Assembly: GCA_913060505.1 (NCBI GenBank)
Contig: CAJXRQ010000001.1
Span: forward strand, 248,001-312,000
DNA from: an uncultured Desulfovibrio sp.
GTDB taxonomy: Bacteria > Desulfobacterota > Desulfovibrionia > Desulfovibrionales > Desulfovibrionaceae
Length of the DNA: 64,000 bases
Direction: 5' to 3'
Below, in pieces: positions 54,259 to 61,088 of the stretch. Positions within the stretch are counted from its first letter, which is position 1. Each line of letters opens with the position of its first letter. A program made the translations under genes and the position numbers. The notes beneath the pieces are model-generated. The model searched no databases. It had not been told where the DNA came from and saw only the letters and a program-made list of their open reading frames with translations.

Positions 54259-54383
54259 GATATCCTCCGACTGTTGGGAGGGGCGGTGAATAAGAAGTGC
54301 AAAGAAGAAGCGTATTGAAACACCTGCACCGAAGTATTCGTACGGCAATTGCCCCGTTGCCGCCGAATTTGCCATGGACAAGC

Positions 54384-54541
54384 TTCGGGCAGGTCTTCCG
54401 GCTTTCCCCGCCTGTTTTCGGCCTTCCCGGACAAATAAGCCCAGTGGCTCGCTTGGAAAACAGGTTTTAGAGGTCTACGGCGGCGGGTCCGCTCCCGATT
54501 TTCACGGGATTCCCTATCAAGTCCTGGCGGACACCTGAAGC
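54384..54541 (-). promoter_or_regulatory. Cobalamin riboswitch
   Basis: The minus strand carries the cobalamin riboswitch core: CTTCAGGTGTCC at the 5' end, TTGATAGGGAATCCCGTGAA, GCGGACCCGCCGC, the B12 box GCCACTGGGC (54442-54448 region), CCGGGAAGGCCG and closing GGAAGACCTGCC. The 125-base stretch to the cbiKP start should hold the expression platform. When adenosylcobalamin is plentiful, the operon below should be off. Confidence 0.95.
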
Positions 54542-54547
54542 AAGGTC

Positions 54548-54577
54548 GTTGTATTCAAGGTGGGTTAGGCGTGTCAA
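54548..54577 (-). promoter_or_regulatory. Promoter of the riboswitch-controlled operon
   Basis: TTGACA and TACAAC are separated by 18 bases, starting inside the cheA stop region and ending just before the riboswitch 5' end. The predicted transcription start is near 54541. Confidence 0.65.
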
Positions 54578-57558: not shown

Positions 57559-58149
57559 ATGAACATACCAGTGACAGATCGGCGCAAGGAGCGCATTGAT
57601 GGAGTTTTGGCGAAACGTCAGCCCGACTTGACTCTTGTCATGGATAATATTTGGGATCCGCACAACGTGTCTGCCGTGCTGCGGAGTTGTGACGCGTTCG
57701 GCGTACACGAAGTACAATTGTATTATACCACATCTCCATGGCCCGATCTCGGCAAGCGGACGTCCGCCTCAGCCAAGAAATGGGTCCGCCGCATACGCCA
57801 TGAGGACGGCCCGGGGATGATCAATACACTTCAGAGCAGGGGATATCAAATCCTGCGTACAGGTTTTTCCGAAACAGCTCGGCCTGTTATGGATTTTGAC
57901 TATACAATCCCCACTGCCATCATTTTGAGCAATGAACATGACGGAACCGCGCCCGAGCTTGCGGAGTTGGTTTCCAATGAAGTATATATCCCCATGCAGG
58001 GCATGGTTCAAAGTTTCAATGTTTCCGTTGCCGCAGCCATAATACTCTATCAGGCTTTTCTGCAGCGTACTGCGGCCGGAATGTATGACGAACCGCGTTT
58101 TGATTCTGAAGAGATGGAAGTGTTGCGCAGGGATTGGTACAGCCGTTAG
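57559..58149 (+). CDS. trmH: TrmH-type tRNA 2'-O-methyltransferase
   Basis: A 196-residue SPOUT methyltransferase close to E. coli TrmH, which methylates G18 of tRNA. Motif 1 is MDNIWDPHNVSAVLRSCDAFG, motif 2 SNEHDGTAPELA and motif 3 IPMQGMVQSFNVSVAAAI. I set the start at ATG 57559 because homology begins there; a TTG at 57523 is an alternative. No clear RBS precedes either. It is divergent from cheY. Confidence 0.9.
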   Translation: MNIPVTDRRKERIDGVLAKRQPDLTLVMDNIWDPHNVSAVLRSCDAFGVHEVQLYYTTSPWPDLGKRTSASAKKWVRRIRHEDGPGMINTLQSRGYQILRTGFSETARPVMDFDYTIPTAIILSNEHDGTAPELAELVSNEVYIPMQGMVQSFNVSVAAAIILYQAFLQRTAAGMYDEPRFDSEEMEVLRRDWYSR

Positions 58150-58181
58150 GCTGGCGGTCGAACAAACGTTTTGGAGAGAAT

Positions 58182-58781
58182 TTGCAAAAGGTGTTAGAAT
58201 CCCTGAGCCGTGGCGGCGTTGCCGTATACCCAACGGAGACGCTCTATGCGTTGGGTTGTGTAGCGACAGACGAAAACGCGTGTGCCCGTGTCGCGGCTAT
58301 CAAGAAGCGTCCGTCCAGCAAGCCGTTGCCGTTGATTGTTGGGTGGCGCGAGGGATTGAAACTGGTGTCCGACGACATCCCGCGCTCGCTGGTCGCCCTT
58401 GTGGAACTTTTTTGGCCCGGTCCCTTGTCCGTATTGGTGCGCGCCAAGGACTCTCTGGCGCCACAGGTGTCCGATGAAAATGGATTTACTTCCGTGCGCC
58501 TGTGCCCTCACCCTGTGGCCGCGGCTCTCAGCCGGGAACTGGCTGCTCCCCTTGTGGCTACCAGCGCCAATATCAGTGGACGTGCTGCCGCAGCCGTCCC
58601 AGATGAACTCGATTCGGAACTGATGGAACAGGCGGACGCGGCGTATCTTGGCAAGCCCTGGCCCATGGGAGGTGTTCCCTCCACCGTGGTTCGCCTCAAA
58701 GGCGGCAATGAGCTTGAGGTAGTGCGCCCAGGAGCGGTGCCTCTGAGCAGACTCGAAGAGCAGGGGTTCGTTATCCGATAA
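58182..58781 (+). CDS. tsaC: Threonylcarbamoyl-AMP synthase (YrdC domain)
   Basis: A 199-residue YrdC-domain protein that makes threonylcarbamoyl-AMP for the t6A37 modification of tRNA. Typical parts are GGVAVYPTETLYALGCVA, SSKPLPLIVG and LVATSANISGRAAA. No ATG fits. I chose the TTG at 58182, with GGAG five bases upstream, rather than the track start inside trmH. It follows trmH closely, and both act on tRNA. Confidence 0.88.
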   Translation: MQKVLESLSRGGVAVYPTETLYALGCVATDENACARVAAIKKRPSSKPLPLIVGWREGLKLVSDDIPRSLVALVELFWPGPLSVLVRAKDSLAPQVSDENGFTSVRLCPHPVAAALSRELAAPLVATSANISGRAAAAVPDELDSELMEQADAAYLGKPWPMGGVPSTVVRLKGGNELEVVRPGAVPLSRLEEQGFVIR

Positions 58782-58804
58782 CGTTGACTTACGGGAGGAA
58801 AGGC

Positions 58805-60298
58805 ATGGCCCACAATCAGACAACGGATCAGCCGTTGGTTCTTGTGGTCGAAGACAGCAGGATGGTCTTGCAGGAGATTTCCCGATGCCTTCTTGATACT
58901 CGTGAGTTTCGTGTCGTTACTGCCACTACCTACGCCGAGGCTGTCGATGTCATCGACGAAATGGCCTCCGAAATCTTTTTTTCAATCCTTGATGTGACAC
59001 TTCCCGACGCACCGGATGGTGAGGTTGTTGACCTTGCCCGGGATCGAGGTATTCCGGCCATCGTCTTTACCGCAAATCTGGATGAGGAGCTGCGTAGCGC
59101 GATTTTATCGAAAGATGTAATCGACTATGTGGTCAAGGATCGGGCGGCCGTGTTGCAGTTGAAGGAGCAAAGCCTTCGGCTCAAGCGCAATCGGGGTGTT
59201 CGCACCATGGTTGTGGACGACTCCTCCTCCTTTCGTGGCTTCATCCGCCAGCTTCTGAAACGGCAGATGTTTGATGTCCTTGAGGCGGCGAATGCCGAGC
59301 AGGCGTTGCAAATGTTCGCGGAGCATGATGACATCCTTCTGGCGATCATTGATTATGAAATGCCGGGGATGAGCGGTATTGATCTGGTTAAGAAGCTGCG
59401 AATGGAACACGGCCGCGACAAACTGACCCTCATCGGGGTTTCCGCCCGTGTGAGCGAACCGCTTTCGGCCTGGTACATCAAAAGCGGTGCCAATGATTTT
59501 CTCCATAAGCCTTTTACTGAAGAAGAATTTAACTGCCGTGTGTTGCAGAATATGGAAATGCTGCATATGGTGCACGCCCTCAAGCGGCATGATGAAGAGA
59601 AAAACCGTTTCCTCGGCATCGTTGCTCATGATTTGCGTACTCCCATCAACGGTATAAGCGGTTTTTTGGAAATGCTGCTTGACGATCTTGCCGGTCCGCT
59701 TTCTGAGGACCAGCGGGAGCTGTTGGAAATCGTGAATACGGCCAACGACAACATGCTCTACATGGTCAATGACCTGCTTGATATTTCCGTCATTCATTCC
59801 GGCAGACTTGATCTGCGTGTTTCAGAGACCGATTTTGGGCAATTGGTACGCGAGCGTGTGCGCATTCATGGATTTGCCGCAGCGCAGAAGGAGATTGTTT
59901 TGGAATTGGACGCTCCCCCAGTTCCTGCACTGAATATTGATGCGCAGCGTATGGCCCAGCTGGTGGATAACCTGCTTTCCAATGCTATCAAGTATTCGCC
60001 TCACGGAAGTGTTACGCAGGTAATTTTGGAGCAGGACGGCGACATGGTGCATTTGATCGTTGAGGACGAAGGGCCCGGAATTTCCGAAGAGGATCAGGCC
60101 CGCCTGTTCCAGAGTTTTGCCCGAACCGGGAATCAGCCGACAGGCGACGAGTTGAGCGTGGGCTTGGGGCTGATGATCGTGCGCAGCATCGCCCTGGCTC
60201 ATGGCGGAAAAGTGTGGGTTGAATCTGAAGTGGGGCATGGAGCACAATTTCACGTAACCTTGCCTTTGGCCTCCGCTGCTCGTAGTGAAAAAAATTGA
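58805..60298 (+). CDS. Two-receiver histidine kinase (REC-REC-HisKA-HATPase)
   Basis: A 497-residue soluble signalling protein. Receiver 1 (about 10-125) has VVEDSR and the Asp of ILDVTLPDAPDG. Receiver 2 (about 130-255) has VVDDSS, IIDYEMPGMSG and FLHKPF. The kinase part has HDLRTPINGISGFLEML, NAIKYSPHG, DEGPGISEED and GLGLMIVRS. Being both receiver and kinase, it can be an intermediate in a relay, perhaps with the CheA-like kinase across the divergent promoter. ATG 58805 follows GGGAGGAAAGGC. Confidence 0.92.
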   Translation: MAHNQTTDQPLVLVVEDSRMVLQEISRCLLDTREFRVVTATTYAEAVDVIDEMASEIFFSILDVTLPDAPDGEVVDLARDRGIPAIVFTANLDEELRSAILSKDVIDYVVKDRAAVLQLKEQSLRLKRNRGVRTMVVDDSSSFRGFIRQLLKRQMFDVLEAANAEQALQMFAEHDDILLAIIDYEMPGMSGIDLVKKLRMEHGRDKLTLIGVSARVSEPLSAWYIKSGANDFLHKPFTEEEFNCRVLQNMEMLHMVHALKRHDEEKNRFLGIVAHDLRTPINGISGFLEMLLDDLAGPLSEDQRELLEIVNTANDNMLYMVNDLLDISVIHSGRLDLRVSETDFGQLVRERVRIHGFAAAQKEIVLELDAPPVPALNIDAQRMAQLVDNLLSNAIKYSPHGSVTQVILEQDGDMVHLIVEDEGPGISEEDQARLFQSFARTGNQPTGDELSVGLGLMIVRSIALAHGGKVWVESEVGHGAQFHVTLPLASAARSEKN

Positions 60299-60451
60299 AC
60301 CACGTCCGGCTGAAAAGTCGCTTTTCTTCGTCGACGGTTCAAAAAATAACACTTTATTTCCCTGTTCCCAAAGATGTCTTTCTGTTCTTTTGTTTTAAGT
60401 AATTCTTTGAAATAAAAGGAATATAAATTTAATTTGCGGCAAGGTGTGCTG

Positions 60452-60467
60452 TGGCACGGGCTTTGCT
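60452..60467 (+). promoter_or_regulatory. Sigma-54 promoter, perfect consensus
   Basis: TGGCACG-GGCT-TTGCT matches the -24/-12 consensus TGGCACG-N4-TTGCW at every defined base with correct spacing (GG at 60453-60454, GC at 60465-60466). The predicted start is near 60478. Transcription would need an enhancer-binding protein, none of which is encoded in this window. Confidence 0.85.
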
Positions 60468-60477
60468 TGTAACAAAG

Positions 60478-60539
60478 CATCCTTCTTCTTGCATAACGAT
60501 TCGAAGAAAGTCCTCTGGCCATTAGTCGGAGGCTTTTTT
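60478..60539 (+). ncRNA. Candidate sigma-54-driven small RNA or attenuated leader
   Basis: From the predicted sigma-54 start to the T-run of the next terminator is about 62 bases. The segment can form a first hairpin from a CCTTCTTCTTG/CGAAGAAAG pairing and then the terminator hairpin. No ORF fits. It could be an independent small RNA, or a leader that limits read-through to the NUDIX gene 90 bases downstream. Confidence 0.5.
60511..60539 (+). terminator. Terminator downstream of the sigma-54 promoter
   Basis: CCTCTGG pairs with GTCGGAGG-type bases (7 bp including G-U pairs) around a 6-base loop, followed by CTTTTTTC. The distance to the upstream promoter makes it the likely end of a short transcript. 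Confidence 0.65.
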
Positions 60540-60629
60540 CGTTTGGTTGATATTTATACCCGGCATTGTCGGTTCCGGTTTGACATGGGGCGATTCTTGG
60601 TCAAGTCTTTGCGCACACAAGGAGATTCC

Positions 60630-61088
60630 ATGCAAAACGAAAAGCAGCCCAGAAATCCTTTCCCAACAGTGGACGGAATAATTTTTGTACCGGGCGCGTC
60701 CGGCAAGACGGACGGTGTGGTGCTGGTAAAAAGGCGTAATCCTCCCCATGGATGGGCTCTCCCCGGAGGTTTTGTGGACTATGGCGAATCCTGCGAAAAC
60801 GCTGTGATGCGCGAGATGAAGGAAGAAACCAACCTCGACATAGTGCTGACAGGGCTGCTGGGGGTTTACTCAGACCCGAAACGCGATCCTCGTTTTCACA
60901 CCATGAGCGTTGTTTACACGGCGATGGCACGTGATATTTCCCGCCTTTCGGCTGGGGATGATGCCGGTGAAGCAAAAGTTTTTTCCTTGGATGAATTGCC
61001 TGAACTGACCTTTGACCATGGGCGGATTCTTTCGGATTTCATTAATGGACCTTATTCGTTGAATCGAACAACGGACATATTAGGATAA
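60630..61088 (+). CDS. NUDIX hydrolase
   Basis: A 152-residue NUDIX protein with a complete box GGFVDYGESCENAVMREMKE followed by ETNLDI. Members hydrolyse nucleoside diphosphate derivatives such as ADP-ribose or oxidised nucleotides; the PPHGWALPGGFVDYGE context resembles the ADP-ribose/nucleotide-sugar types, but the substrate is not fixed. I used ATG 60630 with AAGGAG five bases upstream; the track start would run through the promoter and terminator. It is followed by pdxA nine bases later. Confidence 0.88.
   Translation: MQNEKQPRNPFPTVDGIIFVPGASGKTDGVVLVKRRNPPHGWALPGGFVDYGESCENAVMREMKEETNLDIVLTGLLGVYSDPKRDPRFHTMSVVYTAMARDISRLSAGDDAGEAKVFSLDELPELTFDHGRILSDFINGPYSLNRTTDILG

Follow-up and report, generated by a model that had tools for sequence, protein, structure and literature searches.

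A multi-copy sigma-54 small-RNA family in Desulfovibrio relatives whose 5' end is predicted to pair with porin mRNA leaders

The window, by which we mean the whole stretch of 64,000 nucleotides that was analysed, contains a predicted small-RNA gene located between a hybrid histidine kinase gene and a NUDIX gene (Table 1). Promoters of the sigma-54 type were defined by the pattern TGGCAC-N5-TTGCW with exact spacing, and this pattern was found at the locus and throughout the small-RNA family described below. The original prediction had placed TGGCACG-GGCT-TTGCT, with the exact -24/-12 spacing, at this position of the forward strand; this was confirmed and it is the sole such site in the window. 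When up to one mismatch was allowed, 1.03 matches were expected per 64-kb window from shuffled sequences. As such a match is expected about once in 64 kb, the promoter alone is not beyond chance and was rejected as sufficient proof by itself; comparison was needed, and it is the conservation across relatives that raised the small-RNA element above chance. Elsewhere, an exact sigma-54 promoter (L096:1501-1516, at G000:C3:45806) precedes the gene of a short protein whose start is TadE-like. This promoter lies outside the small-RNA family and is possibly a pilus gene promoter.

Table 1. Features at and around the predicted small-RNA gene, in window coordinates.
Feature	Position	Strand	Basis or remark
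Sua5/YrdC gene	58134-58781	+	Open reading frame; Sua5 family confirmed for the counterparts L142 and L149
Histidine kinase gene with two receiver domains, adjoining the RNA	58784-60298	+	Pfam Response_reg (two), HisKA, HATPase_c
Activator-type site 1, AGTGAAAAAAATTGAACC	60284-60301	+	Motif score 19.8; position kept in syntenic orthologues
Activator-type site 2, GGTTCAAAAAATAACACT, weak copy	60336-60353	+	Motif score 9.3
A+T-rich stretch between sites and promoter	60417-60440	+	
Sigma-54 -24/-12 promoter, TGGCACGGGCTTTGCT	60452-60467	+	Exact consensus; conserved in the family
Small RNA, predicted start ∼60478, end ∼60539-60545	60478-60541	+	Covariance model, fold
C/U-rich unpaired 5' end, ATCCTTCTTCTTGCA, proposed porin-leader pairing region	60479-60493	+	
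Terminator hairpin	60502-60541	+	Fold; family-wide co-variation
NUDIX gene downstream, not the proposed target	60630-61088	+	Pfam NUDIX

Folding of the predicted RNA gave an energy of -21.5 kcal/mol, with a z score of -3.5. A terminator-like stem ending in a T-run had been proposed and was recovered at 60512-60539. Two hairpins had been expected within the RNA; they were replaced by one long hairpin in two parts, with an outer stem in which CGAAGAAAG (60502-60510) pairs with CTTTTTTCG (60533-60541) and an inner stem in which CCTCTGGC (60512-60519) pairs with GTCGGAGG (60525-60532). Most of the T-run therefore belongs to the 3' arm of the outer stem. The second apparent hairpin (60460-60478) is not part of the RNA and overlaps the -12 element. 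The statement that the region holds no ORF needs a correction: the frame of the NUDIX gene is open through the region from a GTG at 60444, but a separate ribosome-binding site serves the NUDIX ATG at 60630, and copies of the element at other loci are not followed by that gene. A search of Rfam (4227 families) gave no match at the gathering score for the element or for 12 loci carrying copies of it. The only Rfam match in the window was a cobalamin riboswitch at 54371-54553 on the reverse strand (96.5 bits).

Two 18-bp sites, both of which had been overlooked, are present upstream of the promoter. Site 1 is the sole strong site of this type in a motif scan of the window; it lies 168 bp before the -24 box and overlaps the end of the kinase gene. 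Site 2 is located 116 bp before the -24 box and 52 bp from site 1, and both its position and the 52-bp spacing are retained in the orthologues, and in other genera too. The interval between the sites and the promoter includes an A+T-rich stretch; across 49 copies of the element the A+T fraction reached up to 0.97 at ∼20-30 bp before the -24 box, and the stretch is possibly a candidate site for a bending protein (IHF).

A DNA search of 60 genomes returned one clear orthologue (G016, 89%) together with weaker matches that spanned the promoter and the RNA start; several of these weaker matches came from the genome to which the window belongs. The unit common to these matches consists of TGGCACG-N4-TTGCT, ∼10 nt, AARYATC, a C/U-rich stretch and a hairpin of the form CGAGAA-(inner stem)-TTCTCG. 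The pattern of promoter and 5' end identified 48 copies in 24 of the 36 genus genomes, and the reversed-pattern control identified none; the matching records were mostly Pseudodesulfovibrio, Salidesulfovibrio and Desulfovibrionaceae. Covariance models (R1 and R2), which were iterated because the first MAFFT alignments had placed the outer stem wrongly, recovered the family in all 36 genomes of the Pseudodesulfovibrio-like genus, mostly with 2-6 copies each. The order-wide covariance search, which stayed within the order and whose weakest matches (E 0.001-0.01) will include chance matches, found the family in 192 of 247 genomes and in 44 of 51 genera. The window RNA itself scored an E value of 1.1e-5 with R1 and of 5.6e-9 with R2, a model that includes the window copy. 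Four convincing copies are present in the window's genome (the window copy on C1, C17:63577-63668, C35:12231-12322 and C2:221609-221702). A fifth match (G000:C19:33670) was ruled out as a plain terminator lacking sigma-54 elements.

The copies encode predicted RNAs of ∼62-75 nt and have in common the sigma-54 promoter, the two upstream 18-bp sites, the C/U-rich 5' end and the co-varying terminator hairpin. They occur in varied gene contexts, some of them in tandem arrays, and this recurrence of the same promoter, 5' end and hairpin supports the view of the element as a stand-alone sigma-54-dependent small RNA. The co-variation of the hairpin was assessed on alignments that were structure-fitted and therefore favour pairing; sliding the pairing partner by one column lowered pairing to 55-60%. 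Within the genus (53 distinct sequences) 97.0% of the alignment cells were paired and double changes were present in 12 of the 14 pairs, with 146 double-change cells observed compared to 41.7 in shuffles. For the other genera (30 distinct sequences) the corresponding values were 96.4% and 14 of 14 pairs, with 109 cells compared to 26.5. The stems thus co-vary in relatives, a comparison that had been proposed as a check; loss of both the -24/-12 site and the hairpins in close relatives had been named as counter-evidence, and the opposite was found, with both kept.

The 18-bp site has the consensus rGTnnAAAAwtTTGtACy, and two such sites accompany nearly every copy of the genus; a single site only was found at one of 49 copies. 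The genus pairs are mostly 40 bp apart, at -157 and -117 from the -24 box, and the 52-bp spacing (∼-168 and -116) is that of the window copy and its syntenic orthologues. Most copies of the other genera, including those of a second family of the order, also have a site pair, at 40 or 52 bp. This paired layout is that expected for a sigma-54 activator, which is the likely protein bound. The window's genome has 33 activator loci, and the 30 of them that were scanned showed no 18-bp site; no activator gene was present within ∼5 kb of the two copies of a genus relative (G148). In G171 (L160:5001-11432) a gene for a PAS-domain sigma-54 activator and transporter-like genes lie between the RNA copies. 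Its congener G116 showed no activator gene of this kind next to the RNA copies; since it is absent near the other copies, the L160 gene was rejected as the family regulator and taken as unrelated. From the literature, DVU3220 and DVU1419 were considered as candidate activators.

To what else the 18-bp site is attached was investigated by a genus-wide scan with the site alone, which returned the RNA loci and, in most genomes, one further place. There the site precedes a gene whose product is an outer-membrane protein of ∼420-480 aa with a signal peptide; the gene is near or divergent from an uvrC-like gene. The protein was assigned to NF033939, outer membrane homotrimeric porin, and no relative of it was found by sequence among solved structures. 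By its name, rather than by alignment, we take it to resemble the DVU0799 family. In Desulfovibrio vulgaris, DVU0799 is the major porin (PMC5686591). The 18-bp site was present upstream of 18 of 18 porins of the genus; in other genera 16 of 21 had it, compared to 2 of 96 random stretches. It is usually located ∼120-140 bp before the start codon and, as judged by eye, upstream of a sigma-70-like promoter. Since porin and RNA genes carry the same site, one regulator probably touches both. In G016 (L203:3968-3985) and G023 (L204:4055-4072) the site was also found upstream of a gene for a small putative lipoprotein (178-183 aa), possibly a further member of the regulon.

Just before the start codon the porin leaders carry GCAAAA-(purines)-AAGGAAG, with a purine run of 7 in most of them, and this is the complement of the RNA seed. 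The 5' end of the RNA is accordingly complementary to the Shine-Dalgarno region of the porin mRNA, in perfect or near-perfect matches of up to 24 bp. The leader GCAAAAAAGGAAGA of G004 corresponds to the RNA TCTTCCTTTTTTGC, and in G023 the two are GCAAAAGAAGGA and TCCTTCTTTTGC; in G022 the leader has seven A and the RNA seven T. The RNA L065 of G016 pairs over 24 nt including one G-U, and the RNA L031 of G014 over ∼20 bp with one bulge. All 38 RNA-porin pairs of the genus had energies between -17.8 and -38.0 kcal/mol, and in no case did more than 8 of 200 dinucleotide shuffles do as well.

The pairing rule was derived from this one genus. As an out-of-sample test, 24 genomes from other genera were searched for porins, which were present in all of them. 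Matches were found in G189 (15 nt perfect, GCAAAAGAAAGAAGG), G143 (TTTAGCAAAAGAA), G126 (16 nt with two G-U) and G116 (13 nt). In G193 the change is compensatory, the leader having ACAAAAG for GCAAAAG and the RNA CTTTTGT for CTTTTGC. When RNAs and porins were paired within their own genome the score was 13.6, compared to 11.1 for swapped partners, and the longest perfect run was 11.2 compared to 8.4 nt; own-genome pairs were better at p=5e-5 (permutation over 33 genomes, relatedness not corrected). The fit is not universal: for G079, G211, G223 and G239 a single porin leader each was tested and did not stand out, and most of these genomes carry further porin genes beyond the one leader that was read. 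Taken across species, the 5' end of the RNA appears to be tailored to the ribosome-binding site of the local porin.

It is improbable that the RNAs mainly target other mRNAs and that the porin match is mostly an effect of purine-rich Shine-Dalgarno sequences. The C/U-rich seed does pair with many such regions, so that further targets are possible, and in a ranking with 397 other gene starts that carry a Shine-Dalgarno, the porin was in the top 2% at the median and not always first. However, the match extends past the Shine-Dalgarno into GCAAAA and further (for example CTTAATCGCAAAAG in G016), the seed changes together with the porin leader, and the porin gene has the same regulator site. The porin as the target, like the RNA family itself, is strongly supported by these comparisons.

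No porin gene was found in the assembly of the window's genome, which is 81% complete, and the pairing of the window copy was therefore scored on the porins of relatives only. In G016, three tandem porin paralogues with different leaders, the first of which lacks the GCAAAA leader, are located at L199 (C1:907903-912350). The seed of the window copy pairs with porins 2 and 3 of G016 at -15.7 and -25.1 kcal/mol, respectively, and the C2 copy with porin 2 at -34.0 kcal/mol. This difference in score hints that the RNA copies may be tuned to different porins. The porin leader or leaders of the window's genome are predicted to be complementary to ATCCTTCTTCTTGCA of the window copy and TATCCTTCTTTTTTTTGCGATTAAG of the C2 copy.

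We consider it highly probable that the locus belongs to a multi-copy family of activator-driven sigma-54 small RNAs that block porin translation, with the activator site also present at the porin gene. A sigma-54 activator would bind the two 18-bp sites, which lie upstream of the -24 box at distances of ∼115 and 155-168 bp, transcription would start at ∼60478, and the RNA would stop at its own terminator. Its unpaired C/U-rich first ∼20 nt would pair with the message of the major homotrimeric porin at the Shine-Dalgarno region, and this pairing would block ribosome binding and lower porin synthesis. The small RNA is thereby pictured as a switch that probably turns porin synthesis down on a putative sigma-54 signal. 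As the same DNA site is upstream of the porin gene, the regulator probably acts on porin transcription too, and its action on both porin transcription and a porin-silencing RNA would constitute a feed-forward loop. That the RNA instead raises porin output, by activation or stabilisation of the mRNA, is very unlikely: direction is not readable from sequence and the shared DNA site is also compatible with co-activation of porin and RNA, but the duplex would occupy the Shine-Dalgarno a short distance before the AUG, and such pairing normally blocks initiation. Beyond translational silencing, we lean somewhat towards an order-wide circuit in which one sigma-54 activator would bind a common palindromic site both at the porin promoters and at several of the small-RNA genes. 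Individual RNA copies would be tuned to individual porin paralogues, the L065/L093 type to porin 2 of G016, for instance, and the window type to porin 3. Such a circuit would be an independently evolved sigma-54 counterpart of the sigma-E porin RNAs.

The porin-repressing small RNAs of enterobacteria are MicA, RybB, MicC and MicF, of which MicA and RybB use sigma-E. They share with the present family a short RNA whose 5' region pairs, here by prediction, with the ribosome-binding region of a porin mRNA. The present family differs in being unrelated in sequence, in its sigma-54 promoter with paired activator sites, in its several copies per genome and in its occurrence in another phylum with another porin family. 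Judged from sequence, it would work like the porin repressors of the MicA/RybB type and is not a member of those families. The Qrr1-5 RNAs of Vibrio are sigma-54-dependent small-RNA paralogues with LuxO as their activator. They resemble the present family in the several sigma-54 paralogues per genome with upstream activator sites and differ in sequence, structure and targets; LuxO is known for Qrr, whereas the activator here is putative.

In D. vulgaris Hildenborough four sigma-54 ncRNAs without known function were reported, three beside DVU0653, DVU0679 (Dv_sRNA2) and DVU2357 and one upstream of DVU3282 under the control of the envelope-stress regulator DVU1419 (PMC3333781, PMC4641369). They belong to the same order and likewise combine a sigma-54 promoter, an activator site and a non-coding product; three of them adjoin their activator gene, whereas the copies of the present family generally do not. 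The family may be identical with the DVU1419-controlled ncRNA, a comparison made by description only, Hildenborough standing outside the genome set. NcS25 of Burkholderia cenocepacia is a porin-regulating small RNA outside the enterobacteria, in a different phylum and with a different porin (PMC10117139). We found no paper joining Desulfovibrio, small RNA and porin in the sense of the proposed circuit, and none on how DVU0799 is controlled; the gene family is apparently undescribed. The proposal offers a testable small-RNA circuit for deep-branching anaerobes whose reported sigma-54 ncRNAs have no known function, and the shared binding site is a handle on the activator and its signal. The RNA-mRNA co-variation over many genera constitutes a natural data set on the co-evolution of small RNAs and their targets.

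Other genera likewise have the RNA between Sua5/YrdC and NUDIX genes, where it forms tandem arrays of two or three, and this interval therefore is likely the ancestral locus of the family. The least credible alternative, raised in the original prediction, is that the sigma-54 promoter serves an attenuated leader of the NUDIX-pdxA-gmhB string with the hairpin as attenuator: the element does precede NUDIX in the window, and several other genera also have a NUDIX gene next to the RNA, but the hairpin is a terminator in each copy at which the RNA ends, most copies are in other contexts, beside unrelated genes, or in tandem arrays, and the changes in the RNA 5' end go with those in porin leaders instead. 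A downstream NUDIX gene is thus not a conserved neighbour of the RNA, although this interval is a common site. At five other loci (L035, L037, L039, L046 and L072) the product of the upstream gene ends in ..FDPRVVEAF.., which by eye is typical of HD-GYP response regulators, and these neighbours possibly indicate a link to cyclic-di-GMP.
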